In this document: piece by piece, positions 8,742 through 33,990 of the stretch
How positions within the stretch are numbered: position 1 is the first letter of the stretch
Layout: every line of letters starts with the position of its first letter
Program-made: the position numbers and the translations under genes
Notes under the pieces: generated by a model
What the model saw: only the letters and a program-made list of their open reading frames with translations
Databases searched by the model: none
What the model was told of the DNA's origin: nothing
Virus record (IMG/VR): IMGVR_UViG_3300032236_001318
Location: 1 to 46,311 of that record
DNA from: a virus
DNA length: 46,311 nucleotides
Strand: one strand, 5' to 3'

Positions 8742-8822
8742 GGTAAGCCTCTTCTTTCTATTCGGGTCAGTTGTCTGACATTCGGATACTGCGTTGTTAC
8801 TGTACTGCGATTTTGCTGATTA

Positions 8823-9080
8823 CTACTTGGTTGGGTAATCGTCCTTGATTAGAGAACGAACCGCATTAATCGTGGCAAGGTTTTTTGCCACCTGCTTGCC
8901 CCTAGTGCTGGCAATTTCTTTGCGTACTTCAAGAACGGGAAGTTCTGTCAATTCGCAAATCCACTCAACGGCGTAATTCAACATCTTTAAACGAAGTTGG
9001 TCAAGAGAGACGGCGGACTTCAACCCTTCTTCCAAGGCTATGAGCCTCATCTCTTCTTTGCTGATTGGGTTTTCTTCCAT
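8823..9080 (-). CDS. Helical hypothetical protein
   Basis: The 85-aa all-helical, charged protein (MEENPISKEEMRLIALEEG..., ending RSLIKDDYPTK) lies in the SSB region with the same orientation. No family recognised. Its composition fits a small regulatory or replication accessory protein, but nothing shows which. Confidence 0.65.
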   Translation of the reverse strand: MEENPISKEEMRLIALEEGLKSAVSLDQLRLKMLNYAVEWICELTELPVLEVRKEIASTRGKQVAKNLATINAVRSLIKDDYPTK

Positions 9081-9118
9081 TTAGCAACTTCCTAGTTTCC
9101 CCAACCATACACGAGACA

Positions 9119-9472
9119 TCACGGAGTAATTGTTCGCTGAGAAGCAGCCAGCGTCCTAAGACCCTCAATGCGAGTTTTGGAAGCGTGGATTGCTTCACGC
9201 AAGGTCATCATGTTGTTCGTCGTTAGCAAACGGTTGTAGTACTCGCTCTCCGTGGCGACCGTAGCGTGGTCGTCGGCAGTGTCTACGGTGATTTTCGCAC
9301 CGTTCGCTCCGCCTTCCGCACGAACCTTTAGTCGCTCTTTCGCAAAGCCAATCTTGAAATCGGCTTCAGCACGAGCGTGGTCTATCGCAACTTGTCGCAA
9401 CTCTTCCAGCAATGTCTGTTGGCGCTCCATTTCGGCTTCAATCGCTTCTTGGATTTCAAATGGTGTGAGCAT
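9119..9472 (-). CDS. Coiled-coil hypothetical protein near SSB
   Basis: The 117-aa protein has a long N-terminal helix (residues 1-50, EIQEAIEAEMERQQTLLEELRQ), a short beta-like segment (GAKITVDTADD) and a C-terminal helix pair containing TNNMMTLREAIHASKTRIEGLRTL. Proteins of this shape are common near SSB in actinophages, but I know no function for them. Confidence 0.7.
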   Translation of the reverse strand: MLTPFEIQEAIEAEMERQQTLLEELRQVAIDHARAEADFKIGFAKERLKVRAEGGANGAKITVDTADDHATVATESEYYNRLLTTNNMMTLREAIHASKTRIEGLRTLAASQRTITP

Positions 9473-9484
9473 AGGAGCCTCAGA

Positions 9485-9727
9485 CTACAACTTGTAGATA
9501 GGTGATGTAGCGAACCCGTTGGCGCATACCTCGGAGTACTTGCCTGACGAAGTGAAGCCTTGCTGAACGACCCACGCTTCAAGTGCGTCGTTGGTCGGTT
9601 CAATGCGCTCGGTGTCGGTGATTGGGGAGCAAATGCCACCCTCTATGAAGCGGTAAATCATCACTTCATAGAAGGGGCGCAGTTCCTCAAACAGGGGGGT
9701 GACTGTGAGTTGGTAGGTCGCCGTCAT
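9485..9727 (-). CDS. Hypothetical protein overlapping the DUF6011-like gene
   Basis: The 80-aa protein starts at the ATG at 9727 (MTATYQLTVTPLFEELRPFYEV), which overlaps the upstream stop as TAATG. The longer frame up to 9814 runs inside the neighbouring gene and is not needed. It appears to be an alpha/beta domain with a conserved-looking GFTSSGKYSEVCANGF segment. Not recognised. Confidence 0.65.
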   Translation of the reverse strand: MTATYQLTVTPLFEELRPFYEVMIYRFIEGGICSPITDTERIEPTNDALEAWVVQQGFTSSGKYSEVCANGFATSPIYKL

Positions 9728-10365
9728 TACAGACCCCACCCGTACTTCTTCGCACAGACGGGCCCGAGCCCACGGTGAACGGACGCTGGCACCGTGAGAA
9801 CTCGCAGACAGCACAAGCAGTTGTTGCTCTTCATGGCGTACGCCTCGGCTTGGTTCATGAACTCGGCACGAGCCTCGTCCACCGAGCCGGTGAGCAAGAA
9901 TTCGGCGGCTGCTATTACACGGTGGTTCGTGGTTTGCGAACGAAAGACCTTCACGCCCTCGCTGGTGAGGAATGCGAAGTCCTTGTACTTCGTGGTGTTG
10001 TCGGCGCCGTAGAGGAACGCAATGGTGGTCTTGCCCTCAGCCCACGCTGGCGCTCCAATGCGGAGCGTAACCCAGCCACCCTGACCGTCAGCGACGGTGT
10101 AGAAGCCGTGAGCCAACTCACGCACGGGCGCAGGTGCGCTCACGGGCGTGGTGGCAACCTCAGCCACCTGCGAGGGCGCCACAGCGACCTTGGGCTGGCG
10201 GAGCAAGTAGGTGATGAAACGGCTGGCTTCCGCCTTACCGAAGGTGTTGTCAGCGACAGCCTTGGCGTACTTGGCGCTTACAGCCTCGGTGACCTCACGG
10301 GTAGCGAGCAGGTCGGTGATGTAGGCGACCTGACGGCTGGTCGGGGGAGTTGTTACTTGGGTCAT
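9727..10365 (-). CDS. DUF6011-like protein with C-terminal Cys motif
   Basis: The 212-aa protein has an N-terminal helical half (TSRQVAYITDLLATREV...) like actinophage proteins of this type, a Pro/Val linker, a middle beta domain (ELAHGFYTVADGQGGWVTLRI) and a C-terminal NNCLCCLRVLTVPASVHRGLGPVCAKKYG. The last segment matches a putative zinc-binding domain I recall as DUF6011. Start: AAAGGA upstream of the ATG at 10365, preceded by AACTGACC and a good promoter at 10408-10437. Confidence 0.75.
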   Translation of the reverse strand: MTQVTTPPTSRQVAYITDLLATREVTEAVSAKYAKAVADNTFGKAEASRFITYLLRQPKVAVAPSQVAEVATTPVSAPAPVRELAHGFYTVADGQGGWVTLRIGAPAWAEGKTTIAFLYGADNTTKYKDFAFLTSEGVKVFRSQTTNHRVIAAAEFLLTGSVDEARAEFMNQAEAYAMKSNNCLCCLRVLTVPASVHRGLGPVCAKKYGWGL

Positions 10366-10407
10366 TGCTTGTCCTTTCGGGTCAGTTGCTTCGTTTGGTA
10401 CTCAACC

Positions 10408-10437
10408 ATGGTACAGCATGGGTACTACGGGTGTCAA
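10408..10437 (-). promoter_or_regulatory. Promoter for the 10365 gene
   Basis: On the minus strand TTGACA (10432-10437), an 18-nt spacer and TACCAT (10408-10413). The spacer ends GTACCCATGCTG, identical to the promoter at 14297-14325. The leader then carries CAACTGACC before the ribosome binding site. Confidence 0.75.
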
Positions 10438-10453
10438 GCCTTTCCTAGGGGCT

Positions 10454-10876
10454 CTAGAGCCGATTTAATTGCTCGTTCTTTTCCTCTTCAACCCACTCTT
10501 CAAAGATTTCGTTGCCTTCGGTGACGAAGTTGAAGAAGTCCTCGTCGGAGCAAAGAGCCTCAAAGAGTTCTTCAGCCTCAATGGTGACCAATCCGAATTT
10601 GCCCACCTTGAAGGTGAAGGAGTGTTCGGCACGGGCGCCCCAGATTTCGTTGAAGAAAACGGTGTAGGGCGTCGTGGCGCTCGGGAGAGCAATGCGACGC
10701 TTGCCACTGCCCAAGTAAGCGTTTGGCGTGATGATGAGGTAGGCGTGGAAGAAGTATTGCCAATTCTCTTGAATGTAGTCAGAGAAGACGCTGGCACGGA
10801 ATTCGTCCATTGCGGTTTCCGTTTCTTCGTAACGGCGCTCCCAAACCAATTCCTGTGCTTCGTAGTTGGTGTACAT
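10454..10876 (-). CDS. Acidic hypothetical protein
   Basis: The 140-aa protein is rich in Glu and aromatic residues (for example YIQENWQYFFHAYLI and EVW-like C-terminal EEWVEEEKNEQ). It is not recognised. The leader reads GTAAATGACCCGAAAGGACAACTG, so the shared GACCCGAAAGGACAA leader of the 10365 gene is duplicated here with small changes. A promoter lies at 10913-10941. Confidence 0.7.
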   Translation of the reverse strand: MYTNYEAQELVWERRYEETETAMDEFRASVFSDYIQENWQYFFHAYLIITPNAYLGSGKRRIALPSATTPYTVFFNEIWGARAEHSFTFKVGKFGLVTIEAEELFEALCSDEDFFNFVTEGNEIFEEWVEEEKNEQLNRL

Positions 10877-10912
10877 AATCAGTTGTCCTTTCGGGTCATT
10901 TACTACAGATAC

Positions 10913-10941
10913 AGTTTATGTAAACCCTGTGACAAAAGCAA
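10913..10941 (-). promoter_or_regulatory. Promoter for the 10876 gene
   Basis: Minus strand TTGCTT (10936-10941), 17-nt spacer starting TTGTCACA, then TAAACT (10913-10918). The spacer start matches the promoters at 20533-20561 and 25552-25580. Confidence 0.6.
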
Positions 10942-10972
10942 GTCAATCCAAAGATTTTATTTTTCCGCTTTT

Positions 10973-11398
10973 TTAAAGGGTTTCCTCGTCCTCTTCGTAC
11001 GGCTCGCTGGTGCGCTCGTGGTGAACCTCAATCTCTTGGTGGAGTTCGTGGAGCGTATGCTCCGCCATGAGAAGCGCTGCTTCGGCTTCTTCTAGGCGCT
11101 CGTCAATAATCTTTTCGTCTTCGTCCTTGACGAGGTGTTCGCCAATCCTCGTTCCGAGGTAGCCACCCAGATAGTTGCCAGCAATCAAGTTGGCAATGGT
11201 GATAGCCGTCTCGCCAGCCCCGTGACCGCCGAGCGAACCCAGCGAGTACTTAGCAGCGACAAAATAAAGAACGCCCCAACCGGCTTCAAATGCTCCAGCC
11301 ATGTGTGGACGGTTTCGGTTCTCCGCCTGAACCATAAGCGCCGAGCAAATGTTTGCGACGACGAGACTGAAGAAGGTGATTACAAGAGTTCCAAACAT
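10973..11398 (-). CDS. Membrane protein with acidic coiled-coil tail, possible lysis function
   Basis: The 141-aa protein has about three hydrophobic segments (residues 3-22, about 38-58, about 65-85, the last Gly-rich: SLGSLGGHGAGET...NLIAGNYLGGYLG) followed by a highly acidic helix to the C-terminus. It is the last gene of the cassette endolysin, TM/coiled-coil protein, HNH protein, membrane protein, with one-base or short overlaps. A holin or holin-like role is inferred from position and shape only. Confidence 0.7.
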   Translation of the reverse strand: MFGTLVITFFSLVVANICSALMVQAENRNRPHMAGAFEAGWGVLYFVAAKYSLGSLGGHGAGETAITIANLIAGNYLGGYLGTRIGEHLVKDEDEKIIDERLEEAEAALLMAEHTLHELHQEIEVHHERTSEPYEEDEETL

Positions 11399-11841
11399 TA
11401 GATAATGAACCCCTTGATAAATTTCAATCCCTCAAAGTCGCTCGCACTTGCGACATGAGTGCCACCGTGTCCTCGGTGGTGAAACTCACACAACACGACA
11501 AGGTTCTCTGCGCTCTCAACCCATGCGCCTAACTTGTCGGGGTCGGACACGCCTGGATAGTCAATCTCTAGCCACGAGAGGTCTACGGAGTTTTGTAGCG
11601 CAAACTCAATGTGTGCGTGGTGAAGTTCAAGCGGTTTGTCTAGCGAGCATTCGGAAAAGTCGCCACGGTGCTTTCCAATGGCGCACTTCCACTTCTCTGG
11701 GTCTTTCTCCCACTCACGACGAAGGTGATTGAAGTCCACATAGTGTGGGTCGTTTTCACGAGCCTCATGTTCTGGGAAGCGCACTGCGTAGTTGTGCGTC
11801 ATCTTTTGAATGTGCGCTGGTGTTGTTTGGTCGTCACTCAT
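11398..11841 (-). CDS. HNH-endonuclease-like protein in lysis cassette
   Basis: The 147-aa protein starts at the ATG at 11841 (MSDDQTTPAHIQK). Its C-terminal half has an HNH-type pattern: CSLDKPLELHHAHIEF, then NLVVLCEFHHRGHGG with an Asn in AENLVVL. HNH nucleases cut DNA and are frequent in phages, sometimes in packaging. The location between lysis genes is odd. Whether all catalytic residues are present needs a profile alignment. Confidence 0.7.
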   Translation of the reverse strand: MSDDQTTPAHIQKMTHNYAVRFPEHEARENDPHYVDFNHLRREWEKDPEKWKCAIGKHRGDFSECSLDKPLELHHAHIEFALQNSVDLSWLEIDYPGVSDPDKLGAWVESAENLVVLCEFHHRGHGGTHVASASDFEGLKFIKGFII

Positions 11842-12154
11842 CTTGACCGTCCATTGGGTTGCGCTGAACATTGCGAGCGTGGCTACCGAATTCAATGTGT
11901 CGGTCTAAACGGTTTTGCGAACGCTTTACTTCGCCTTTGAATTCTTCAACGACGGCGATAATGCGAGTGTTCTCTTTGGTGTTCCCGTCCTTGACTTCAT
12001 CAATCTGTTTACGCAATGCTTCAATGTCGCTTTTCTTCGCAAGTTTGCGATTGAGCCAACCAAAGCCACCGGCAATGGAAGCGATAACGGCGCTCATGGC
12101 AAAAAGGGTTTGCCAAAGCGTCGCTGTGTTGTTGCTGATTACTACTGCGCTCAT
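11834..12154 (-). CDS. Single-TM coiled-coil protein, holin candidate
   Basis: The 106-aa protein has an N-terminal hydrophobic segment (residues about 12-33, WQTLFAMSAVIASIAGGFGWL), then a basic turn and a long helix (KSDIEALRKQIDEVKDG...). It overlaps the endolysin stop by a few bases. One TM plus a cytoplasmic coiled coil recalls XhlA-type or class III holins, but the family cannot be fixed. Confidence 0.7.
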   Translation of the reverse strand: MSAVVISNNTATLWQTLFAMSAVIASIAGGFGWLNRKLAKKSDIEALRKQIDEVKDGNTKENTRIIAVVEEFKGEVKRSQNRLDRHIEFGSHARNVQRNPMDGQDE

Positions 12155-13218
12155 AGTTTGATGTCTGCCTTTTTCGTTTTCATTTCTACGCCCATTGACT
12201 TACAAAGTTCGTCTTGCTTCATGGTGCGGTGATACTTCAAGAAAAAGTCGCTGGCGGTTTGCGTCTCGTTAGACCACACACCGTCGCCCTTAATTCCAAT
12301 CCTTTGCTGATAGACCTCTAGCGCCTGCTTGGTCTGAAGCCCGAACACGCCGTCGTTACTTCCCTTGGGAAGAAGCCCTTGCTGAATGAGCAAGGTTTGG
12401 ATTTGTACGACCTTAATTCCGTGCGAACCCGTGGTGTACAGAGGGTTCGCTGGCTTGCCGTTGTTTGACTGATTGTATCCAGCGCCCGTCCACTTGGTGA
12501 ACCACGAACTTTCCGCTACCGAAAGGTCGGTGTTGTTGTGCGTCCCGTTGGGTTCGGCAACGCTCGTGAACTGCCACATTTGCCAGCCCGTGTTACGCCA
12601 CGGCGCAGGAAGCCTTGGTGAAGGAAGCGAGCAAACATTTGCTACGGGCTGGTAGCCGTTGGGGTACGCAGGCAACCAGAGGTCGTAGGGCGCAAGGAAC
12701 GGGTACTGCGAGGCAGGGAAGAATGCTCCGACATAGATAATCGGCGCTCGGTTGGTCATGGCTTGAACGGTTTGTAGCCACAGCAACGCCCAGCGAGCGG
12801 TCGCTTCGGGCGAGAGAGTGGTGACTTCCAAATCAAGCGCAGGGGGCAACTGACCATTGTTGCCACCCTGAGCCAAGAAGTATTTGGCTGACGCTACGGC
12901 GTCAGTTTTGCCTGGTTGGGCGAACTGATACACGCCCCATGGAACGCCAGCCCTCGTTGCGTCACGGGCGTCACTCGTCCAATAAGGGTTGGTGTAGTTC
13001 ACGCCCTCGGTGTTCTTGATGTAGGCGCCAGCGATACCAGCCTTAACAAGTTGCGTCCAACCAAGTGGGTGCCTGTTGTTACTGCTGATGTCAATGACCC
13101 TGAGCCATGTCGCACAAGGCGTCTGGGCGACGGCAACCCTGCTAGGAACAACCGCAAACAACGAGGTGAACGCAATCGTTACCGCAAGGAAAATTGGACG
13201 AATTTTGAATGAGCGCAT
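12151..13218 (-). CDS. Secreted GH25 endolysin with peptidoglycan-binding domain
   Basis: The 355-aa protein starts with a typical signal peptide (basic MRSFKIR, hydrophobic core to about residue 22, cleavage near AVAQ at 29-32). The GH25 muramidase domain follows, with the catalytic Asp in VIDIS (D43) and the DLE pair at D129/E131, and fold markers GVYQFA and WQMWQF. Residues about 268-325 form a PG_binding_1 domain (GIKVVQIQTLLIQQGLL...DGVFGLQTKQALEVYQQ). It cleaves the MurNAc-GlcNAc bond. The signal peptide suggests Sec export, so the holin may only trigger timing. Confidence 0.95.
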   Translation of the reverse strand: MRSFKIRPIFLAVTIAFTSLFAVVPSRVAVAQTPCATWLRVIDISSNNRHPLGWTQLVKAGIAGAYIKNTEGVNYTNPYWTSDARDATRAGVPWGVYQFAQPGKTDAVASAKYFLAQGGNNGQLPPALDLEVTTLSPEATARWALLWLQTVQAMTNRAPIIYVGAFFPASQYPFLAPYDLWLPAYPNGYQPVANVCSLPSPRLPAPWRNTGWQMWQFTSVAEPNGTHNNTDLSVAESSWFTKWTGAGYNQSNNGKPANPLYTTGSHGIKVVQIQTLLIQQGLLPKGSNDGVFGLQTKQALEVYQQRIGIKGDGVWSNETQTASDFFLKYHRTMKQDELCKSMGVEMKTKKADIKL

Positions 13219-13245
13219 ACAAAATCGTACCGCCCGTTTTCCAAT

Positions 13246-13557
13246 TTACGAGGCTCGTGTTGCGTTGGTGATGTTGAGTTGTGGCTCCCAAAGAGAGATG
13301 TTCAAACGCTTACGAACCTTCGCTCGTTGCTGTGGTGTTAGTCCACCTTGGTAACCGTAACCTTCGTGAAGAACCGCCCACTCTTGGCACGGCTCCAACA
13401 CGGGACAGTTCAAGCAAGCGTTAATAACTTCTTCGGAGTAAATCTTCTTCGCTGAAGAACCCTTTTCTTCTTCGGGGAAGAAAAGATTTGGGTTCATGTT
13501 GCGACAGTTTGCCTGCTTAATCCACGCTTCACGGGTGAGACTGTTCGGCTTGCTCAT
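13246..13557 (-). CDS. Second WhiB-like iron-sulfur protein
   Basis: The 103-aa protein has cysteines at C18, C48, C51 and C57 (CLNCPVLEPC) and the turn GYGYQGG at 66-72, then TPQQRAKVRKRLN as the basic helix. It is shorter and clearly different from the WhiB at 7519-7908. It lies directly upstream of the endolysin, so it may serve the lysis or late-gene switch. The ATG overlaps the stop of the 94-aa gene. Confidence 0.92.
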   Translation of the reverse strand: MSKPNSLTREAWIKQANCRNMNPNLFFPEEEKGSSAKKIYSEEVINACLNCPVLEPCQEWAVLHEGYGYQGGLTPQQRAKVRKRLNISLWEPQLNITNATRAS

Positions 13558-13838
13558 GGTGTTTTGTAATCCTTTCCTTTGATTACTCTTGCTTTTTTAT
13601 GGTTCCTACTATCGGTTACCGACCAATGCTCGGCAACGACGAGGTTGTTCTTTGTTGCGTAAATCTTCACTTCAAACTCTGCTGTTGCTTCTTTGACATA
13701 CCCAATCGGATAAATCCGAGCAACGAGATTGGAGCCCGTAAGTTGTTCAACGAGGTAGGCGCCTCGCTTGCCCTTGTGTCGTGTGTCGTCGTGTAGGGCG
13801 CAGTAGATGTATCTGCTCTGTACGACATCTTCACTCAT
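13554..13838 (-). CDS. Hypothetical beta-rich protein with leaderless start
   Basis: The 94-aa protein (MSEDVVQSRYIYCALHDDTRHKGKRGAYLVEQLTG) is basic and beta-rich. Not recognised. The -10 hexamer TACTGT ends 8 nt before the ATG, so the mRNA is probably leaderless. It heads a transcript that continues into WhiB and the endolysin. Confidence 0.65.
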   Translation of the reverse strand: MSEDVVQSRYIYCALHDDTRHKGKRGAYLVEQLTGSNLVARIYPIGYVKEATAEFEVKIYATKNNLVVAEHWSVTDSRNHKKARVIKGKDYKTP

Positions 13839-13846
13839 GGGCGCAC

Positions 13847-13875
13847 ACAGTACTGTGCTGATACAACGAAATCAA
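13847..13875 (-). promoter_or_regulatory. Promoter for the WhiB/endolysin transcript
   Basis: Minus strand TTGATT (13870-13875), 17-nt spacer, TACTGT (13847-13852), then 8 nt to the ATG at 13838. One of the clearest promoters in the window. Confidence 0.7.
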
Positions 13876-13896
13876 GTTCATCTTCTTTCCGAATAA

Positions 13897-13936
13897 GTCG
13901 GAAGGGGGTCGGCTCCTACCCCGACCCCCTTCCGAC
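13897..13936 (-). terminator. Perfect 16-bp hairpin downstream of the 13966 gene
   Basis: GTCGGAAGGGGGTCGG (13897-13912) pairs perfectly with 13921-13936 across an 8-nt loop. It follows the stop of the leftward gene at 13966. The following minus-strand sequence is CTTATTC, so the T-run is poor, but the stem is very stable. Confidence 0.7.
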
Positions 13937-13965
13937 AAGGTGGTGAATGCGTCGTTACGGTTTGC

Positions 13966-14247
13966 TTACCGAGCCGACGCCTCTTCGCTCTCGGTGAGGA
14001 ACCAACCGTGCGTGGTCGGGTCGCTCTCAACCATTGAGGGGTCGGTCGGGTCAAAGCCGAACACGAACTTCTTGCCGGTGAGACGCTCAACGGTGACACG
14101 CAAGTTGCCCTCGCTGTAGCCAGCCCACTTGCCGTCCTGAACTTCCCACTCAAAGTTGGTGTTGGTAATGCGCTCAATCATGTTGATGTAGCGACGCTGG
14201 TTGTAGACCGACCAGCGGTTTGGTACTACGGGGCTTACTTCAGTCAT
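13966..14247 (-). CDS. Hypothetical protein
   Basis: The 93-aa protein starts at the ATG at 14247 (MTEVSPVVPNRWSVYNQRRY), which has TAGGAG upstream. The frame further upstream runs over the promoter and should be discarded. It is a mixed alpha/beta domain ending GWFLTESEEASAR. Not recognised. It is a single-gene transcript between a promoter (14297-14325) and a strong hairpin. Confidence 0.65.
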   Translation of the reverse strand: MTEVSPVVPNRWSVYNQRRYINMIERITNTNFEWEVQDGKWAGYSEGNLRVTVERLTGKKFVFGFDPTDPSMVESDPTTHGWFLTESEEASAR

Positions 14248-14296
14248 TGGCACTCCTAGTGTCAGTTGGTTCGTTGGTACCGTTTGGTACTCAACC

Positions 14297-14325
14297 ATGG
14301 TACAGCATGGGTACAACAAAATCAA
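14297..14325 (-). promoter_or_regulatory. Promoter for the 14247 gene
   Basis: Minus strand TTGATT (14320-14325), 17 nt, TACCAT (14297-14302). The sequence GTACCCATGCTGTACCATGG is shared with the promoter at 10408, and the leader has CCAACTGACAC before the AGGAG site. Confidence 0.75.
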
Positions 14326-14330
14326 ATCAT

Positions 14331-14882
14331 TCAAGAGACAATTTCAAAATGGTGCGTAACGATAATGCGAGGCTTCGCCTTGCGTGGCGACTTCTTCGGC
14401 GTGGGCTTCTTTGCCTTGCTGATTGAAACGACATTGTTCGTTGTCGCTGTGGCGCTTTCAATCTTGTAGGTGCCTTCAAAGAAATCAGAGTACCGCTTCT
14501 TGAGCGAAATGCCGACGGTGTGGGCAACGCTGAAGCGACACTTTTGCGTCTCAACAACCATTCCTCGGTCTGTTACGAACGAGACATTAACCAAGTCGTT
14601 TGCGCCGAACGGCGCCTTGGGCGATTGCTTCGTGCTGTTCTTCTTGGGTCGTGGGTAGCGAAGCATTGGCGAGATAGGAATAACGAGTTGGCGCTGTTTG
14701 CCGTCTTCAAAATTAAACTTGGCAAAACGCCAATTGGTCTTTGAGAACTCGGCAACAATTCCGTTGCCGAACTTTTCGTGGTAAACCTTGTCGCCAACGA
14801 TTAGGTCAATGCGATTATTTTCGCTGTTGTAAATCGGAAGTAACCGTGGCGCCTTCTTTGTGTCAGTTGGTGTAGATGTCAT
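14331..14882 (-). CDS. Tudor-like (PcrA/UvrD C-terminal type) domain protein
   Basis: The 183-aa protein has, at residues about 28-75, GDKVYHEKFGNGIVAEF...FAKFNFEDGKQRQLVIP, the pattern of the Tudor-like domain at the C-terminus of UvrD/PcrA helicases, which contacts RNA polymerase. The rest is basic, and the tail KPRIIVTHHFEIVS is nearly the same as the tail of the divergent gene at 15346-15753. The ATG at 14882 follows a TACACT -10 by 7 nt, and codons 6-8 encode the shared CCAACTGACAC element, so the mRNA is probably leaderless. An RNA polymerase-binding regulator is an inference. Confidence 0.75.
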   Translation of the reverse strand: MTSTPTDTKKAPRLLPIYNSENNRIDLIVGDKVYHEKFGNGIVAEFSKTNWRFAKFNFEDGKQRQLVIPISPMLRYPRPKKNSTKQSPKAPFGANDLVNVSFVTDRGMVVETQKCRFSVAHTVGISLKKRYSDFFEGTYKIESATATTNNVVSISKAKKPTPKKSPRKAKPRIIVTHHFEIVS

Positions 14883-14889
14883 GGGTAGA

Positions 14890-14922
14890 AGTGTACCACG
14901 GTTTAGTAGAGTGTGCTACACT
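14890..14922. promoter_or_regulatory. Divergent pair of leaderless promoters
   Basis: Two TACACT hexamers face away from each other: minus strand at 14890-14895 and plus strand at 14917-14922. Each is followed by 7 nt and an ATG (14882 and 14930). The 33-bp interval is an imperfect inverted repeat (AGTGTA...TACACT) containing ACTAAACC on the minus strand. A regulator binding here could control both directions. Confidence 0.6.
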
Positions 14923-14929
14923 ATCCCCC

Positions 14930-15346
14930 ATGGAAACTGACACCCCTACAAATAACATCACATTCTTTGCGTACGGAACCTTACGCAAAGGCGAGCGACT
15001 TCACGGTTGGATTGACGAAGAAATCGTTAGCGACCTTGGCACCGCCGTCATGCGAGGAACCCGACTGTACTTCTCAACCGAACACAAGGCGTATCCGTAC
15101 CTCGTGTTTACGGGTCGCATGAGCGACGAAGCCGTTGGTGAACTCTACGAGTTGCCGGTCAATGACAATGTAATCTCCATGTTGCGTATGGAGCAAAATG
15201 CTGGCTACACAATTTCCGAGGGAACGGTCACGCTCCCAAATGGTGAAGAGAAAGATGTCGTAGTTTGCTCTTGGAAGTACGAGCATGGCGACGAGGTTCC
15301 CGACAACGATTGGTGTTCAACCGAGCGTAAGGAGTGGTGGGTCTAA
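14930..15346 (+). CDS. Gamma-glutamylcyclotransferase-like (GGCT/AIG2 fold) protein
   Basis: The 138-aa protein starts at the ATG at 14930 (METDTPTNNITFFAYGTLRKGE); an upstream GTG/ATG frame crosses the promoter. FAYGTLRKGE is the substrate loop of the GGCT fold, and MEQNAGYTISEGTV with an acidic residue is the expected second motif. Family members release 5-oxoproline from gamma-glutamyl amines or peptides, but phage members have no established substrate. Next gene starts at TAATG. Confidence 0.8.
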   Translation: METDTPTNNITFFAYGTLRKGERLHGWIDEEIVSDLGTAVMRGTRLYFSTEHKAYPYLVFTGRMSDEAVGELYELPVNDNVISMLRMEQNAGYTISEGTVTLPNGEEKDVVVCSWKYEHGDEVPDNDWCSTERKEWWV

Positions 15347-15753
15347 TGGCGTTTAACGAAAAAGTCATAACTTCGTTGCTGGGCAACGAGGACTACATCT
15401 ATCTTTCGCAGGTCTACGGACTAACGGTGGACTTCATTCAAGGAATGAACGACGCTGATTGGTGCGCCTACCTTGGCTGTAGCGTTGATGAGTTGCCGTT
15501 CTACCTTCTTGATGACGAGGGTGGCAAGACGAATGAAGCATTCGGTTTGCTAGACGACTTTGAAAGTTTTGATGAAGCCGACACGCTTTTTGATTTGGGT
15601 GATTACATTGAGCGTCAGTTCGCAGAGACGCCAATTCCGAACGCACTACCGCCGGTCAATAAAATTCGCTCGGAGTACTCACGACCTTCCAAGTACGCAA
15701 CACAGCGCAAGCCGAAGATTGTCGTTACTCATCACTTTGAGTTGGTGAAGTGA
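15346..15753 (+). CDS. Hypothetical protein sharing a C-terminal tail with the divergent gene
   Basis: The 135-aa protein (MAFNEKVITSLLGNEDYIYL) has an acidic helical body and a basic end. The last residues, KPKIVVTHHFELVK, match the tail of the Tudor-like protein at 14331. Its start overlaps the GGCT-like stop as TAATG. The shared tail suggests a common partner or localisation signal. Otherwise not recognised. Confidence 0.7.
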   Translation: MAFNEKVITSLLGNEDYIYLSQVYGLTVDFIQGMNDADWCAYLGCSVDELPFYLLDDEGGKTNEAFGLLDDFESFDEADTLFDLGDYIERQFAETPIPNALPPVNKIRSEYSRPSKYATQRKPKIVVTHHFELVK

Positions 15754-16900: not shown

Positions 16901-16902
16901 GA

Positions 16903-17459: not shown

Positions 17460-17465
17460 AACCCA

Positions 17466-19791: not shown

Positions 19792-20526
19792 TTACTTTCC
19801 TTTCGGCTTGTTGTGGGCTCGGACTAGTCCAAGGGTGGTGAGGGTTTGCCATTCTCCGCACGAGCATTTGCCGTAGCGGTAGGGGTACTTGGAGTGCTTC
19901 TCGGCTGGGACTTTGCCCGAGCCGTCGCAACGCTTGGCGAGACGCTCAGCGTCCTTGTGGCTCACGCCGTTCGTCCACTCCACGGGTGCTGAAGGGAAGC
20001 AAACCGTACACAGGATTGCGCCGTGCTGGGCTACAGCGTCCGCTTCGGTCAGACCGCTCAGTTCGGGAAGCCAGCCGAACGAGGTCGCCTTGCCAACCTT
20101 GTTACAGGTTGAGCAATCCATGGACGAGTGAATGTGTCCACCGTGGACGAGGAAGAACCTGCTCCAGCCCTTGTACTGCTTTTCGGCTTCGTTGATTTCT
20201 TCCTTCTTGGCACGGTACTTCGCTGAGATTGCGTCGTACTTCTCAAACTTCTCGGCTTCCACCTTGCGGTTCCAATCGTTGGCTGAACCAATTGCGCCTT
20301 CGTTGAAGAGACGGCGAAGGTTCTCCACCGTGGCGATTTCTTGTACGCCGTTCAAAGTGAAGGTACGGGCGCCACCTCGTCCACTCCTTGAAGCGAGTGG
20401 CAATAGGTACTCAATGTTTTTCTTGGCGCTCATGAGTTCAAAGTACAGGTCAGTGCTTTCGTTGTACAGACGGGCAATGTTGGTGTCAATCGCAACGATT
20501 TCTTCTCGGGTCAGTTGGTTTGTCAT
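19792..20526 (-). CDS. Conserved actinophage protein with Cys clusters
   Basis: The 244-aa protein has an N-terminal helical region (to about residue 115), then SRFFLVHGGHIHSSMDCSTCN, FGWLPELSGLTEADAV, GAILCTVCFPSAPVEW and a C-terminal CSCGEWQT. The arrangement HIHSSM.CSTC...LCTVCFP is familiar from actinophage genomes, where it has no known function; it is probably zinc-binding. The ATG at 20526 follows TACCAT by 6 nt and codons 3-6 encode the shared CCAACTGACCCG element. Confidence 0.8.
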   Translation of the reverse strand: MTNQLTREEIVAIDTNIARLYNESTDLYFELMSAKKNIEYLLPLASRSGRGGARTFTLNGVQEIATVENLRRLFNEGAIGSANDWNRKVEAEKFEKYDAISAKYRAKKEEINEAEKQYKGWSRFFLVHGGHIHSSMDCSTCNKVGKATSFGWLPELSGLTEADAVAQHGAILCTVCFPSAPVEWTNGVSHKDAERLAKRCDGSGKVPAEKHSKYPYRYGKCSCGEWQTLTTLGLVRAHNKPKGK

Positions 20527-20532: not shown

Positions 20533-20561
20533 ATGGTACAGGGGTTTAGTGACAAAATCAA
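20533..20561 (-). promoter_or_regulatory. Promoter with leaderless start for the 20526 gene
   Basis: Minus strand TTGATT (20556-20561), 17-nt spacer TTGTCACTAAACCCCTG, TACCAT (20533-20538), then 6 nt to the ATG. A second ACTAAACCCCCG-TACCCA string lies near 20605-20625 on the same strand. The 20527-20736 gap holds no gene. Confidence 0.75.
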
Positions 20562-23673: not shown

Positions 23674-23717
23674 TGAAATCCCCACTTGTGAGCGTCGTCA
23701 CGCACTAAAGTGGCGTT

Positions 23718-24752
23718 ATGACGGAAGAGCAACTGACACTTTTCAGTAACTCCGATTTCGTAGCGCCCCGACTTTCGGCGGAACAAGAGCATGAAGTTTT
23801 GCTCGGCATACTTTCTCGCTGGCGAGAGCGTGGATTTCCCTACTACTCCACGGATTTCAGTAAACGAGAACACGAGTGGGAGAAGTTCGTCCGCTCTCCT
23901 AGGAACATTATTGAGGGAACGGTTATACGCCAGACCATGGCTGGACTTGCGCTGGCGTGGTCGTACTTTCCCCACGCTTGGGAAGTGCGGGTGCGTAACG
24001 CTCGTACGCCCATGGACATTTGGAACTCCGACGAACTCATGCTTCAAGCCATTCGGCGTCGCTTGGAACGCTCTGGCATACCGATTTCAGTAAACACTGA
24101 CCTGACCCCAGCCCGATTGCGGAAGGCGTTTGGTTCGGTGAGCCGAGTACAACGAGTTTCCAATTTCCGTCCCACCGCTGCTCGGGCGTTATACGACAGA
24201 TACGCCGACGGTGCTGTTTGGGATTTGTCCTGTGGCTACGGCGGACGGCTACTTGGAGCGATTGCGTCGCCCAAGGTGACGACCTACTTTGGAACCGACC
24301 CTGCGACCAAGACCTACGAGGGGCTGTGTGCGCTCCGAGACGACTTCGCCCACAAGACCGATACCGAGGTGTTGCTCCATTGCGTTGGTTCTGAGGACTT
24401 TGTGCCGGAGCCGGAGAGCCTGTCTTTTGCGTTCACTTCGCCCCCGTACTTCAGTACCGAGCAGTACGCCTACGAGGATACGCAATCGTTCGTGCGCTTC
24501 CCCGAGCGTGAGCAATGGAACGAGGGCTTTTTGCGAGCGTCCGTGCGTAACGCCCACAAGGGGCTACGACACGGCGCACATCTGGCGCTGAATGTCGCCA
24601 ACACACGAGAACACCCGACGCTAGAAGCCGACACGGTGCGTATCGCTACCGAGGAAGGCTTCATGCTGACCGAGACACTTCAGTTGGCGTTGTCCGCTGT
24701 GACGAATGGTGGGTTCAAGTACGAACCGACCTTCGTGTTTGTTAAGCCCTAG
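23718..24752 (+). CDS. DNA methyltransferase-like protein (TSPPYF type)
   Basis: The 344-aa protein has a SAM-binding motif VWDLSCGYGGRLLGA and the catalytic motif FTSPPYF near residue 241. S-P-P-Y points to amino-methylation (N4-cytosine or N6-adenine type) rather than C5. The N-terminal half is a helical domain also seen in the paralogue at 41458-42495. The ATG lies 6 nt after TAAAGT and codons 5-7 contain CAACTGACAC, so a leaderless start is likely. No restriction partner is adjacent, so host-restriction avoidance or a step in base modification is possible. Confidence 0.85.
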   Translation: MTEEQLTLFSNSDFVAPRLSAEQEHEVLLGILSRWRERGFPYYSTDFSKREHEWEKFVRSPRNIIEGTVIRQTMAGLALAWSYFPHAWEVRVRNARTPMDIWNSDELMLQAIRRRLERSGIPISVNTDLTPARLRKAFGSVSRVQRVSNFRPTAARALYDRYADGAVWDLSCGYGGRLLGAIASPKVTTYFGTDPATKTYEGLCALRDDFAHKTDTEVLLHCVGSEDFVPEPESLSFAFTSPPYFSTEQYAYEDTQSFVRFPEREQWNEGFLRASVRNAHKGLRHGAHLALNVANTREHPTLEADTVRIATEEGFMLTETLQLALSAVTNGGFKYEPTFVFVKP

Positions 24753-24970
24753 CGACGAGGCGTCGTGAGGACGAAGATGAGCGAGATGAGGATAGCGAAG
24801 CCAAACTCAATCGTAAAGAACACGCCCAAGCCACGAGCGAGGGTTGCCCAAATGTTCGTCGTCGCCAAATAGGGAGCGAGTGCGCTCGTCCACATGAGGG
24901 CGAGGAACATTGAGACGAGATGAATGAACGGCGTGTACTTGTTGCCACGCTTGCGACGGTTGGTGTTCAT
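24749..24970 (-). CDS. Two-TM membrane protein
   Basis: The 73-aa protein has a very basic start (MNTNRRKRGNKYTPF) and two hydrophobic helices (about 17-36 and 46-68). It converges with the methyltransferase gene (4-nt overlap). Function unknown. Confidence 0.65.
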   Translation of the reverse strand: MNTNRRKRGNKYTPFIHLVSMFLALMWTSALAPYLATTNIWATLARGLGVFFTIEFGFAILISLIFVLTTPRR

Positions 24971-25305
24971 GATTGCTCCTTAGGGGTCAGGTAATAGGTT
25001 TGTAGCACCGAGCGCACGAGGCTCTCAATGTTTGTTTCAAGCGACAGTGCGTTTCCGAATTCAACGCCTTGCTCGCCATGCTCAACAATCATTCCGTCCA
25101 CAGCGACCGTGTAGGTGCTGTCGGTGTTGCTGAGTTCTAGTCCCAAGACAACGCCGTTCACGACGGAGAGGACATGGGTGTAGGTGTCGGCGTCCGCAAA
25201 GGACACACGGTCAATCGCCTTGGCGACAATCTCGGCTGAGGTGTCCCACGCCATGAGCGTCTCAATGCGACCGACGAGGGCTGGGTCATTGGTGACGGCG
25301 TACAT
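24967..25305 (-). CDS. Hypothetical protein
   Basis: The 112-aa protein starts at the ATG at 25305 (MYAVTNDPALVGRIETLMAW), overlapping the Zn-ribbon stop as TGATG. The longer frame to 25392 runs inside that gene. It is a mixed alpha/beta protein. Not recognised. Confidence 0.65.
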   Translation of the reverse strand: MYAVTNDPALVGRIETLMAWDTSAEIVAKAIDRVSFADADTYTHVLSVVNGVVLGLELSNTDSTYTVAVDGMIVEHGEQGVEFGNALSLETNIESLVRSVLQTYYLTPKEQS

Positions 25306-25445
25306 CAGTTGCCTCGCACAATCGTCTTGGGAGCCTTCTCGCCACAGTCGGCGCAACGCAGGTTCTCCCAATACTTGGAACCGCAGTCGCAACGGTGGAC
25401 GCCTTCAAGGTCAGCGTCGGAACGCACGGGGATTGTCTTGGTCAT
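25305..25445 (-). CDS. 46-aa zinc-ribbon protein
   Basis: The frame from the ATG at 25445 gives MTKTIPVRSDADLEGVHRCD, CGSKYWENLRCADCGEK and a short basic tail. CDCGSKYW...CADCGEK is a four-Cys zinc ribbon. AAGGAG lies upstream, preceded by AACTGACC and a promoter at 25479-25508. Confidence 0.7.
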   Translation of the reverse strand: MTKTIPVRSDADLEGVHRCDCGSKYWENLRCADCGEKAPKTIVRGN

Positions 25446-25478
25446 GCTCTACTCCTTGGTCAGTTTTCCTACCCACCC

Positions 25479-25508
25479 ATTGTGCCACAGTTCCTATACC
25501 CCCGTCAA
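25479..25508 (-). promoter_or_regulatory. Promoter for the zinc-ribbon gene
   Basis: Minus strand TTGACG (25503-25508), 18 nt, CACAAT (25479-25484). It is divergent from the promoter at 25552-25580. Confidence 0.65.
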
Positions 25509-25551
25509 GTCTTTATCTATAGCGACCCACCAAAATACTTTTTTGAATGAT

Positions 25552-25580
25552 TTGATTTTGTCACAGCGGTGCTGTAGCAT
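25552..25580 (+). promoter_or_regulatory. Promoter for the amidoligase operon
   Basis: TTGATT (25552-25557), 17-nt spacer TTGTCACAGCGGTGCTG, TAGCAT (25575-25580), then a leader with CCAACTGACCAAGGAGCAGAA before the ATG at 25620. Closely matches the promoters at 27791 and 28417. Confidence 0.8.
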
Positions 25581-25619
25581 GGTTATGTTCCAAATGAACC
25601 AACTGACCAAGGAGCAGAA

Positions 25620-26684
25620 ATGCCAGCCAGCAACCGACCAACGCAGTACCAGCGCAGTGCCAACATCACTCGCACTCGTCAGGCGACGATTGCCCGTCAG
25701 GACGAGGCGCTTCGTCTCCGTCGCTCGGGTATGTCGTACATTGAGATTGCCCGTACGCTCGGCTTCACGCCCAACGGCATCGCTCGTCCGCAATCGGCTG
25801 CTGAGGCAGTTCGGGCTGCTGAGCGTCGCCTTGTTGTAGCGAACGCCGACGGCGCTGTTGCGACCGTCGCCCAGACTGCGACCGTTAGCCACCCGTCGCT
25901 TCCGTCCAACCGAACCTTCGGCTTTGAGTGCGAGTTCTTCGGTATCACGGTTCCTACGGCGCTCAACGCTTTGCGCTCCATTGGCTTGGACGCTGACTTT
26001 GAGACATACCACGCCAACACGGTTCCGTCCGGCTGGTGGAAGATTACGACCGACGGTTCGGTGACCGCTCGTGGCACCGGCATGGGTCGTGGTCTTGAAA
26101 TGGTGTCGCCGGTTCTCCGTGGCGAGCAGGGCTTGGAGATTGCTTCCAAGGCAGTCAAGGCGCTCCTGAACGCTGGTGCGAAGGTAGACCGTACTTGCGG
26201 ACTTCATGTCCACCTCGGCATGGACGGCTTGTCCGGCGCTGACCTCATCAAGGTCGTTGAGTTCTACTCTGCGAACCAGAACAACATCAACAATGTTGTT
26301 TCGCAGTCTCGCCACAACACTCGCTGGGCGAAGCGTTACGACACGAGCGTGTACCGCACCGCTTTTGAGAGCATTCGCAACACGAACTCCACCAGCGAGT
26401 TGCGTAATGCGGTCGGTCGTTTTGACCGCTACATGACGGTGAACCTGACCTCGTACTCCAAGTACGGCACGGTTGAGTTCCGCCAGCACCAAGGCACTCT
26501 CAACGCCGAGAAGGTTGTGTCGTGGGTCAAGTTCGTCATGGCGCTGACCGAGAAGGCTGTCGCTACGACCGACCCGACCGAGGCGTTCGCTTCGTTCCCC
26601 GAGTTGCTGGGCAACCTTCCGCTCTCCGAAGAGACGGTGGCGTTCCTGAACCGTCGCTCCGAGACGCTCGTTGCTAGTCGCTAG
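25620..26684 (+). CDS. Amidoligase-family enzyme (glutamine synthetase-like fold) with N-terminal HTH
   Basis: The 354-aa protein has an N-terminal helical segment (residues about 15-60, EALRLRRSGMSYIEIARTLGF), which looks like a helix-turn-helix. The amidoligase core then shows FGFECEFFGI, WWKITTDGSVT, GRGLEMVSPVL, CGLHVHLGMD and GTVEFRQHQGTL. These are the metal- and ATP-binding acidic, His and Arg residues of the amidoligase branch of the glutamine synthetase-like superfamily. Such enzymes form amide bonds, and in phages they pair with a glutamine amidotransferase, as here. The substrate is unknown; cell-wall or protein modification has been proposed. Confidence 0.88.
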   Translation: MPASNRPTQYQRSANITRTRQATIARQDEALRLRRSGMSYIEIARTLGFTPNGIARPQSAAEAVRAAERRLVVANADGAVATVAQTATVSHPSLPSNRTFGFECEFFGITVPTALNALRSIGLDADFETYHANTVPSGWWKITTDGSVTARGTGMGRGLEMVSPVLRGEQGLEIASKAVKALLNAGAKVDRTCGLHVHLGMDGLSGADLIKVVEFYSANQNNINNVVSQSRHNTRWAKRYDTSVYRTAFESIRNTNSTSELRNAVGRFDRYMTVNLTSYSKYGTVEFRQHQGTLNAEKVVSWVKFVMALTEKAVATTDPTEAFASFPELLGNLPLSEETVAFLNRRSETLVASR

Positions 26685-26719
26685 TCCAATCAACTGACAA
26701 AAGAAAAGAGGAAATCATT

Positions 26720-27451
26720 ATGTGCGGTATCGCAGGATTTTGTATTCACAAGGACGACAAAATTAACGCCAAGAAGTTGTCCATGGCAATGCTGAACCAG
26801 ATTGTCTCTCGTGGCGAGGACGCTACGGGGGCTGCTTGGGTTAAGTCTGACAAGGCGACCAAGAAGGCGAGCATTGCTGTTAGCAAGGCGCCGGTTCCGG
26901 CGTACAACTTTGAGCAGTACCTCGCTCAAATGGATACGAACACGAAGCGAGCAATCCTTCACACTCGTTGGGCGACCAAGGGAACGCCACAGAACAACCT
27001 GAACAACCACCCAATCGTTTCGGGTCGCATTGTCGGCGTACATAACGGGGTGCTGTCCAACGACGACGCTGTGTTTGATTACTTCCGTGAGGCTCGTAAG
27101 GCGCAAGTAGATAGCGAAGCAGCCTTCGCCCTACTGAACCGCACGGTGTACTCACCGGCTCAAGTGCTTAAGTCGCTCCAAGGTCGGGCAGCCTTGGCTT
27201 GGCTTGACGCTCGTGATAAGCGTGACCTTCATCTCGCTCGTGTCTCGGGCAGTCCGCTCGCTATCGGCGCAACCGAGGCTGGCTCGCTGTTCTTCGCCTC
27301 AACCATGCCGTTGCTCGTCAATGCCTGTGCTGACGCAAAGGTGGACTTGTCGTGGGCGGAAGAAATCAACCCCATGACTTACATCAAGGTTCGCAACGGC
27401 GAAATCATTGAATTGGAAAACATTGGTGAGAGCCTTAAGGAGATTGCGTAA
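26720..27451 (+). CDS. Class II glutamine amidotransferase
   Basis: The 243-aa protein begins MCGIAGFCIHKDDK, with the catalytic N-terminal Cys2, followed by SRGEDATGAAW, ILHTRWATKGTPQNNLNNHP and GRIVGVHNGVLSN, the classic Ntn-type GATase II motifs. It hydrolyses glutamine to give ammonia, which the neighbouring amidoligase could use. No synthase domain follows, so it is a stand-alone glutaminase. The leader has CAACTGACAAAAGAAAAGAGG. It is coupled as TAATG to the next gene. Confidence 0.92.
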   Translation: MCGIAGFCIHKDDKINAKKLSMAMLNQIVSRGEDATGAAWVKSDKATKKASIAVSKAPVPAYNFEQYLAQMDTNTKRAILHTRWATKGTPQNNLNNHPIVSGRIVGVHNGVLSNDDAVFDYFREARKAQVDSEAAFALLNRTVYSPAQVLKSLQGRAALAWLDARDKRDLHLARVSGSPLAIGATEAGSLFFASTMPLLVNACADAKVDLSWAEEINPMTYIKVRNGEIIELENIGESLKEIA

Positions 27452-27789
27452 TGGAAGACAACAACGCTTTCTTGACCCCCAATAAGGCGACATGGACGCT
27501 GGTGTGGGGTGGCGAGAAGTTCGTCGCCCCCTCAGCGTTTGACATTCTTGCCACCATTGGAGAACGCTCGTACATACCAAGCGACCGTAAGTACCCGAAG
27601 CGAGGCATTGCCTATCGGGTGTTTGTCCAGCACCGTGTTCTGATTGACGACGAACTGAGCGACGAGGAATTCCTGACCAAATTGGCGGAGTTCGGGATTG
27701 CGAAACTGACCGTTGAGGGCGTCCGACCCCCAGACATCTTGGACGAGGCGGTGCTGTTTTCCCAAGCGTGGCACGGGGGAACCGATTGA
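27451..27789 (+). CDS. Hypothetical protein after the amidotransferase
   Basis: The 112-aa protein (MEDNNAFLTPNKATWTLVWG) is a mixed alpha/beta protein with a C-terminal acidic helix. Its one-base overlap with the amidotransferase gene suggests it works with the amidoligase pair, perhaps as a partner or substrate. Not recognised. Confidence 0.65.
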   Translation: MEDNNAFLTPNKATWTLVWGGEKFVAPSAFDILATIGERSYIPSDRKYPKRGIAYRVFVQHRVLIDDELSDEEFLTKLAEFGIAKLTVEGVRPPDILDEAVLFSQAWHGGTD

Positions 27790-27790
27790 C

Positions 27791-27819
27791 TTGATTGTGT
27801 CACACCCATGCTGTAGCAT
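27791..27819 (+). promoter_or_regulatory. Promoter for the 27854 gene
   Basis: TTGATT (27791-27796), 17 nt, TAGCAT (27814-27819). The spacer end CACCCATGCTG and the leader GCAACTGACCAAAGGAG match the other members of the family. Confidence 0.8.
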
Positions 27820-27853
27820 GGTTATGTAAGAGCAACTGACCAAAGGAGTTCCA

Positions 27854-28411
27854 ATGACCGCCAAGAGCAAGCCCACCAAGACCGGCTTCGTACCGTGCGA
27901 GCGTTGTAACGGCAGGGGCGAGTGGGGTCGGGAAATCCGCAACGGCAACCTCGTCTCCCTCGGCGTTTGCTTCCGTTGCCGTGGCGCCAAGGCTGACCCC
28001 CGTGCGAAGTCGTGGGTGTTCACTTCCGAGTGGACTGAGGAAGAGCGTGAGGCGTTCATCATCAAGGAAGAAGCCAAGGCTGAGGCTCGCCGTATGAAGG
28101 CTTTTGAGAAGCGTGAGGCGGAGCGTCTCGCCAAGTTCCCACCCGTGGTTGCTCCGGTCGTTGAGCCGGTCGTTGAGCCGGTCAAGACCCCTGCGCCCAC
28201 CGGCAAAGTTGAGGTCGTTGCGACCGTCCTCGGCTTCAAGGGTGGGAAGGTTCTCATGGAGAGTGTTGAGGGCTGGCGCCTGTTCACTTCTTGCCCCGAC
28301 GGTGATTGGGAGCGTGGCGACACTATCCGCTTCACGGTCACGGTTGAGCAGTCTGACCGTGACGCCTTCTTCGCCTTCGGAAAGCGCCCGTCCGTTGCCG
28401 AGAAGATTTGA
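27854..28411 (+). CDS. Zn-finger protein with C-terminal beta domain
   Basis: The 185-aa protein has an N-terminal DnaJ-like cluster (CERCNGRGEW...CFRCRGAKA, residues 15-44), a charged helix (EEREAFIIKEEAKAEARR), a Pro/Val/Glu linker with a repeated VVEPV unit, and a C-terminal beta domain (VEVVATVLGFKGGKVLMESV...GDTIRFTVTVE) that looks like an OB fold. RNA or DNA binding is plausible. Similar architectures occur in actinophages without known function. Confidence 0.75.
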   Translation: MTAKSKPTKTGFVPCERCNGRGEWGREIRNGNLVSLGVCFRCRGAKADPRAKSWVFTSEWTEEEREAFIIKEEAKAEARRMKAFEKREAERLAKFPPVVAPVVEPVVEPVKTPAPTGKVEVVATVLGFKGGKVLMESVEGWRLFTSCPDGDWERGDTIRFTVTVEQSDRDAFFAFGKRPSVAEKI

Positions 28412-28416
28412 TTAAC

Positions 28417-28445
28417 TTGATTTCGTCTCACCCATGCTGTACCCT
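28417..28445 (+). promoter_or_regulatory. Promoter for the 28480 gene
   Basis: TTGATT (28417-28422), 17 nt, TACCCT (28440-28445), with CACCCATGCTG before the -10 and CCAACTGACCCC in the leader. Confidence 0.75.
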
Positions 28446-28479
28446 TTTCTAGTACCAACTGACCCCGTAGGAGAACCTG

Positions 28480-29301
28480 ATGAACTTGATTGAAACGAAC
28501 CTCTTGGAACTTCGTGCTGGCATTGTCCAACGAGCCGAACAAATCGCTCAGACTACAACGCCCGTCGCCCGTGTTGAGGTGTCGCAAGCCGTGGGCTTCA
28601 CGGTCGCTGACCTGCTTGACCTTGAAGCGAACGAGTACGGACGCTACGCCCTCGTTCTGGTTTCTGACCCTGCGTTCGTCAAGTCCGAGATTGCGCTGTT
28701 GCGTCAGGACGCCACGCCGGTCGTGCGCCGTATGTTCTCCGCCTTCGTCAAGGGCTTGGACGAAGCCATGGTCGTTGCCCAGAGCCGTCACACCAGAGAC
28801 ATTGCGAACAAGTTGGAGAGTTTGCTCGTGGCGGATAGCCGTCGCTCCGCTGGGATTGGTCGCCCGTTCGCTCGCCTCGGCGTCGTTGATTTGGTTCGCC
28901 TCAACAACGAACTCGTTGGAGCGGTCACTCGGGGTCGCTTCGTCATTGACGGTGAAGAGCAAGGCTCCGACAACTTCCGCACCTTGCTTGAGGGTACGGA
29001 AATCTACGCTACGACCCGTAGTCGCTTCAAGGTCGGTGCTGACGGTACGCCCACGCACTCATTCCGCCACACGATTTCGGCTAGTGGTTCTCTCCAACCC
29101 TTCTTGAGCGAGTACCGCCAAGCCTCGGGTGCTGAGCGTATCTTCATAGAGCGCCACAACTCTTCGCTGGGCGACGGCGTAGAACACATCAAGTCCTTTG
29201 TTCAGGTTGTCCTGACCAAAATCTCTGATGAGTTGTCCGCTCGTGTTGCCGAGTGCGCCGAGCAAGGCATGAACCTCGTGGTGACCAAGACCAACCCGTG
29301 A
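28480..29301 (+). CDS. Hypothetical helical protein
   Basis: The 273-aa protein (MNLIETNLLELRAGIVQRAE) is largely helical with a central beta segment (GEEQGSDNFRTLLEGTEIYATTRSRF). GGAG lies upstream of the ATG. No family recognised. It belongs to the rightward run with its own promoter. Confidence 0.7.
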   Translation: MNLIETNLLELRAGIVQRAEQIAQTTTPVARVEVSQAVGFTVADLLDLEANEYGRYALVLVSDPAFVKSEIALLRQDATPVVRRMFSAFVKGLDEAMVVAQSRHTRDIANKLESLLVADSRRSAGIGRPFARLGVVDLVRLNNELVGAVTRGRFVIDGEEQGSDNFRTLLEGTEIYATTRSRFKVGADGTPTHSFRHTISASGSLQPFLSEYRQASGAERIFIERHNSSLGDGVEHIKSFVQVVLTKISDELSARVAECAEQGMNLVVTKTNP

Positions 29302-29360
29302 GAGCGGTAGGTCTGTCACACCCCGTTGAGATACTTAACTGACCAATCAAGGAGCATGAA

Positions 29361-33988: not shown

Positions 33989-33990
33989 GG

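Follow-up and report, generated by a model that had tools for sequence, protein, structure and literature searches.

A putative mRNA tag at the starts of non-structural genes in an uncultured freshwater virus, most likely an actinophage

Why do many unrelated genes of one virus begin with the same short string, and is that string read as DNA or as RNA? The question is raised by AACTGAC, which recurs at gene starts in a 46.3-kb IMG/VR contig of an uncultured freshwater bacterial virus with 52% G+C (record IMGVR_UViG_3300032236_001318, positions 1 to 46,311; hereinafter, the window means this entire stretch). We find that the association of this string with gene starts is real, and that the longer tag to which it belongs, CCAACTGAC in the window, is on balance probably a start-associated element of the mRNA, located in the translation-initiation region. 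The start-associated sequences (SAS) of actinophages have been known since 2011 without a mechanism, and their mode of action, at the DNA, at the RNA or through the ribosome, had been open. The window proteins include a portal, a protease, a terminase, an endolysin, a single-stranded DNA-binding protein (SSB) and a WhiB-like protein, and the relatives found by comparison of the portal include 69 viral loci at 40-92% identity. Because they also include Arthrobacter phages, with portals approximately 50% identical to that of the window, the virus is most likely an actinophage; a scan of genome contigs with the window portal, aimed at the host, found no relative.

AACTGAC at gene starts

The first-pass annotation had listed 13 gene starts with AACTGAC, and all 13 sites are indeed present, on the coding strand and within -31..+15 of the start codon, nine of them in leaders and four within the first codons. 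The string occurs 23 times in the window compared to 7.75 expected, a count that 0 of 100 shuffled sequences reach, and 13 of the 23 occurrences fall in the sense windows from -35 to +20, although these account for no more than 5.5% of all positions on the strands (p 3e-11, binomial test). Because the sites at issue were added by hand to the list of starts used in this test, the cleaner evidence comes from an unsupervised comparison of all 7-mers between automatically called starts and the rest of the genome, without a preset motif. In this comparison, CAACTGA is the top 7-mer other than the Shine-Dalgarno (SD) sequence in the window and in the relatives G002 and G016, and ranks high in G001. 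With one mismatch allowed, AACTGAC shows no enrichment, so the signal resides in exact or near-exact copies. The copies located outside 8742-29360 are inside coding sequence, apparently by chance.

There are, then, 13 exact start copies, or 14 when a probable, divergent one at 10879 is counted. The genes that carry them are mostly non-structural and probably early or middle, and no copy is found at the starts of the portal, protease and terminase genes or of the genes at 33-37 kb. Approximately 15 relatives share the motif in the form (A)CCAACTGAYTAGGAG. The exact 15-mer CCAACTGAYTAGGAG was found in 55 stretches, compared to 16 for a scrambled control, and a high copy number at starts is seen only in the phage family of the window. 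Unrelated phages often contain ACACCGACTAAGGAG, seemingly where a gene end adjoins an SD sequence, so single copies carry no meaning. A scan of viral contigs for AACTGACC combined with AGGAG and ATG was likewise discarded, the matches being mostly due to chance.

Position relative to the ribosome-binding site and the promoter

When 36 distinct sites from the window and its relatives are pooled, the leader consensus is (A)CCAACTGA(C/T), usually followed after 1 nt by AGGAG, with the core approximately 19-31 nt from the start codon. On the minus strand of the window, leader copies are located at 8766..8772, ahead of the SSB gene (8247..8741, -; start at 8741); at 10381..10387, ahead of the gene starting at 10365 and 20 nt downstream of the sigma-70-like promoter TTGACA-18-TACCAT (10408..10437, -); at 14261..14267, where AACTGAC followed by actAGGAG precedes the gene starting at 14247 and lies 29 nt downstream of the promoter TTGATT-17-TACCAT (14297..14325, -); and at 25459..25465, where AACTGACC-AAGGAG precedes a 46-codon gene starting at 25445, with the promoter TTGACG-18-CACAAT (25479-25508, -). 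On the plus strand, AACTGACC-AAGGAG (25601..25607) precedes an amidoligase gene starting at 25620 (promoter TTGATT-17-TAGCAT, 25552-25580, +), AACTGACC-AAAGGAG (27834..27840) precedes the gene starting at 27854 (again TTGATT-17-TAGCAT, 27791-27819, +), and AACTGAC precedes the genes starting at 28480 (28457..28463; promoter TTGATT-17-TACCCT, 28417-28445, +) and at 29361 (29337..29343; a possible weak -10 box, GATACT, lies directly upstream). The probable 14th copy, CAACTGA followed by T (CAACTGAT; 10879..10885, -), lies between the SD sequence and the ATG of the gene starting at 10876.

The main positional argument of the first-pass annotation, a seemingly constant position of the motif relative to the transcription start, is not supported. 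For the 16 sites with a readable promoter, at which distances were curated by hand, the interval from the -10 box to the motif ranges from 11 to 29 nt (sd 4.3), whereas the interval from the motif to the SD sequence is 0-5 nt (sd 1.2). Given that the SD distance is nearly fixed and the -10 distance is variable, the element is placed by the ribosome-binding site and not by the transcription start. In addition, some copies lack a recognisable promoter altogether, namely, the copy at 26692..26698 (+), which is located 7 nt past the upstream stop codon and ahead of a glutamine amidotransferase gene starting at 26720; a copy in a relative, 5 nt past a stop codon (L185:399); and the copy in the SSB leader of 13 phages.

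These observations bear directly on the alternative that AACTGAC is a DNA element just past the promoter, either an asymmetric operator or a downstream promoter element, bound by a transcription factor of phage or host origin. Most window copies do lie 11-29 nt past a TTGA(T/C)-17/18-TANNNT-like promoter, on either strand and always co-oriented with it, several of these promoters are within duplicated segments of 37-44 nt, and the upstream extended element (ESAS) of the related cluster K system overlaps promoters (PMC11373665). Nevertheless, we consider a DNA element unlikely, given the 18-nt variation of the -10 distance next to a nearly fixed SD distance, the promoter-less copies directly past upstream stop codons, and the fact that the motif is not palindromic outside the SSB leader.

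The duplicated segments themselves invite the deflationary explanation that the motif has no function of its own and was spread by recent copying of a promoter-leader cassette, as the repeats D5 and D11 might suggest. Cassettes of this kind, 66-97% identical, recur at unrelated genes (25545-25588, 27784-27827 and 28410-28453; 10392-10428 and 14281-14317), and the 37-nt cassette to which the promoter at 14297..14325 belongs is 97% identical to 10392-10428. However, the leaders diverge around an invariant motif, both within one phage and across relatives, copies are found in codons and past stop codons, and in other lineages a variant replaces the tag at the same genes; hitchhiking with a cassette is therefore a very remote prospect. 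An ESAS consists of upstream 17-bp imperfect inverted repeats that overlap a promoter; what the window offers in this respect is the repetition of the promoter cassettes and the sequence CCATGCTGTA(G/C)CATGG, which overlaps the -10 box of three promoters, neither of which demonstrates a general 17-bp repeat.

Where a gene appears to be leaderless, its copy is located downstream of the start codon, within the first codons; such copies are found at 14862..14868 (-; gene start 14882), 14935..14941 (+; gene start 14930, gamma-glutamyl cyclotransferase-like), 20510..20516 (-; gene start 20526, promoter TTGATT-17-TACCAT at 20533-20561, -) and 23731..23737 (+; gene start 23718). They fall in two reading frames. 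Among 102 leaderless-like starts, seven carry the motif at +3..+22, compared to 0-2 at distant offsets.

Tag variants in relatives and the putative reader

The sequence of the tag differs between the window and some of its relatives, and it does so in concert at several genes of one genome. Gene starts of the relatives were called by a simple script, many relatives are represented by fragments only, and independent tag switches are few in number. Some relatives with portals 76-85% identical to that of the window lack CAACTGA at starts and have other tags, ACCGACTAAGGAG or ACCTACCAAGGAG, at the matching orthologous starts. Thus, the amidoligase leader contains CCAACTGACCAAGGAG in the window, CCAACTGATTGGAG in G002, ACACCGACTAAGGAG in G022 and CACCTACCAAGGAG in G004; the glutamine amidotransferase gene is preceded by CAACTGA, CCGACTA or CCTACC depending on the lineage, and the up212 gene by CAACTGA or CCGACTA. 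Genome-wide, CGACTA[AGC] is present at 17 starts in G022 and G011 compared to 2.6 expected, and ACCTACC at 9 starts, compared to 0.9 expected, in G004 and G005, contigs that share these sites. The variants CCAACTGAY, CCGACTAAG and CCTACC are each common to several genes within one phage and differ between phages at orthologous genes; in our reading, the three can be aligned in one register as CCNACYRA. One suggestive case extends to the coding region: in the first codons of the leaderless orthologue of the gene starting at 14882 in G011 (42% identity, 150 aa), ACCGACTAAG takes the place of the CCAACTGAC of the window. Many sites of one genome changing together look as if the change were imposed by a shared trans-acting reader.

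The locking to the SD sequence, the promoter-less copies past stop codons, the in-codon copies of leaderless genes and the joint switching of tags, taken together, speak for an mRNA element in the ribosome-binding region more than for a site on the DNA or an antiterminator. Of the roles envisaged in the first-pass annotation, that is, RNA stability, antitermination, translation control or a DNA site just past the promoter, translation control agrees best with the SD-locked, promoter-less and leaderless sites, and both a promoter-proximal DNA site and nut/put-like antitermination are disfavoured. The mechanism that we propose involves a tag of 9-10 nt, (A)CCAACTGA(C/T), usually directly ahead of the SD sequence or just inside the coding sequence of an apparently leaderless transcript. 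Such an element would act on the RNA, at the initiation step, and would be bound by a putative sequence-specific trans-acting factor, most likely phage-encoded, which would jointly set the translation, or the decay, of the entire gene set, probably as a repressor after the early products have accumulated.

The same position next to the SD sequence could, alternatively, mean that the tag is a translation enhancer of the host type, that is, an extended signal for ribosome binding, recognised by the ribosome itself (through 16S rRNA or ribosomal protein S1) without any phage regulator, which would also account for its presence on many unrelated genes. This we find improbable: complementarity to the 16S rRNA of E. 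coli and Arthrobacter is no better than for shuffled motifs, in leaderless genes the tag is also found downstream of the start codon, and its sequence differs among close relatives (although their hosts may differ too). Another conceivable reader is a small antisense RNA, of the phage or of the host, that would target a GGUCAGUU seed in the usual initiation window of -35..+15. The short, seed-like length and the positions both upstream and downstream of the start codon fit such an RNA, and a change in its seed would explain the lineage-specific switching; against it, Rfam detected no known structured RNA in the window, tRNAs are absent as well, and no candidate small RNA was found, without a systematic search for unannotated ones. 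We give this possibility even less credence than that of a host enhancer.

Several observations do not sit easily with a switched mRNA element. The cyclotransferase gene retains ACAACTGACAC in G004, a phage with CCTACC at its other starts, and in L152 and L157 it does not contain the exact motif, so some of the in-codon copies may reflect conservation of the protein. The promoters are matches to the -35/-10 consensus, from which the transcription starts are inferred, and the distance from the -10 box to the motif, though variable, is short, compatible with a possible role linked to the promoter or to the 5'-end of the transcript. Furthermore, the motif leaders other than that of SSB are at most slightly more structured than other starts (p 0.35 without the motif and 0.03 with it). 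Leader hairpins of a general kind, suggested by eye in G022 and G011, were not significant (p 0.10) and were dropped; the SSB leader is the only one that holds up.

The leader of the SSB gene itself can form a hairpin, GTCAG-acaa-CTGAC (8766-8779), in which the motif is the 3' arm and GTCAG (8775..8779, -) the 5' arm. The SSB leaders of 13 phages have diverged in the flanks but share AACTGAC and the upstream TCAG without any variation; the pairing is either GTCAG..CTGAC or TCAGT..ACTGA, with 4-5 bp, and the mean z is -2.0, compared to -0.6 in upstream control windows. Four of the pairs never vary among the 13 leaders, so covariation, of which there is none, cannot serve as proof of the hairpin. 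The SSB leaders of other lineages are weak as a group (mean z -0.8 vs -0.6 in control windows). Individual untagged SSB leaders, those of L178, L173, L158 and L179, contain other hairpins approximately 20-30 nt ahead of the start (AAGCCC..GGGCTT; GCCCCC..GGGGGC).

The SSB sequence also tracks the tag best among the genes near the portal. Identity to the window SSB is 50-70% in tag-bearing phages and 39-48% in others, and the tag labels change twice on the SSB tree compared to 3-5 times on the trees of its neighbours; when the labels come from distant sites alone, there are again 2 changes on the SSB tree versus 3-5, or 4 on a common set. L157 and L151, with identical portals and neighbouring genes 91-95% identical, have SSBs that are 54% identical and different types of SSB leader, which looks like an exchange of the SSB together with its leader, as one unit. 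Pfam and PHROGs recognised no RNA-binding regulator among the window proteins scanned, in which the WhiB-like protein and the SSB were found. It is conceivable that a phage-encoded translation-control factor, possibly the SSB, reads the 9-nt tag across an entire early regulon, whether the tag precedes or follows the start codon, with a specificity that has been switched between close relatives such that all tags switch together; we offer this fuller scheme as a tentative possibility, rather doubtful as a whole. The link between the SSB and the tag comes from very few independent events, and one copy of the motif is a physical neighbour of the SSB gene, for which reasons the SSB is a lead, a weak candidate for the reader or for a factor linked to it.

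Comparison with known start-associated elements

In cluster K mycobacteriophages, the SAS is a short asymmetric repeat of which each genome has 11-19 copies, all in the sense orientation and at the starts of mostly non-structural genes (PMC3203893); it is conserved beyond what an SD sequence requires, and a linked upstream ESAS overlaps promoters (PMC3203893, PMC11373665, PMC12699233). Its consensus, GGGATAGGAGCCC, includes the SD sequence, and the distance to the start is 3-7 bp (PMC3203893). Microbacterium phages of cluster EF have ten copies of a SAS with the consensus GGGAAAGGACCCC at the ribosome-binding position, together with an extended upstream element (PMC7302621). The tag of the window resembles these sequences in being multi-copy, in sense orientation and at the starts of non-structural genes, but its core precedes the SD sequence, with a gap of 0-5 nt, or sits inside the open reading frame (ORF), whereas the SAS repeat includes AGGAG. 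With up to 3 mismatches, GGGATAGGAGCCC and GGGAAAGGACCCC have 7 and 11 matches in the window, compared to 7.1 and 13.6 expected. Given the different sequence and placement, we regard the tag as working like a SAS but do not file it as a member. In Salgado (L258), a cultured Arthrobacter phage with a portal approximately 50% identical, 10 gene starts carry a start string of another kind, GAACCCCA, which is absent from the remainder of the stretch read. Start tags that are specific to a lineage thus seem to be widespread among actinophages; Ottawa had no start string of comparable strength.

The occurrence of different tags at the same genes of close relatives and of copies away from the SD sequence or the promoter narrows the long-standing SAS question towards an mRNA element with a co-evolving reader, and renders it testable by swapping tag variants and by a search for the matching factor. 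Reading by a phage factor, if true, would be the first mechanism for start-associated sequences.

Further analogies come from phage T4. RegA is a single phage factor that targets the initiation regions of numerous early mRNAs, as proposed here for the reader of the tag, but its sites overlap or directly precede the AUG and are A+U-rich and loosely conserved (PMC3014915); of the window proteins scanned, none was RegA-like. RegB acts at the GGAG of early-gene leaders (PMC3014915), but its consensus extends 3' of GGAG, whereas the conservation in the window is 5' of it, and no RegB homologue was identified. Autocontrol of gp32, the T4 SSB, depends on a structured leader of its own mRNA followed by an unstructured ribosome-binding region (PMC3014915, PMC535899). 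The window SSB leader may have a similar arrangement, with a putative hairpin of 4-5 bp that includes the motif in place of the gp32 pseudoknot approximately 67 nt upstream, and, on this analogy, the SSB is tentatively a candidate reader of the tag under gp32-like autocontrol.

The structural genes seem to follow a different pattern. The starts at 2407 and 5776 (-), and those in G022 and G017, lack the tag and seemingly have another upstream arrangement, TTTGGAAA..GTAGCATTT, with few exact matches. Finally, the minus-strand regions 33197-37533 and 511-2370 encode 8-9 copies of a module of approximately 28 aa, SGFTTNELLYPLTKGDxxGHxFHGNQY, which begins or recurs in a row of ORFs with differing C-terminal parts, one of them weakly acetyltransferase-like, and has the look of a virion-targeting tag that several proteins share.

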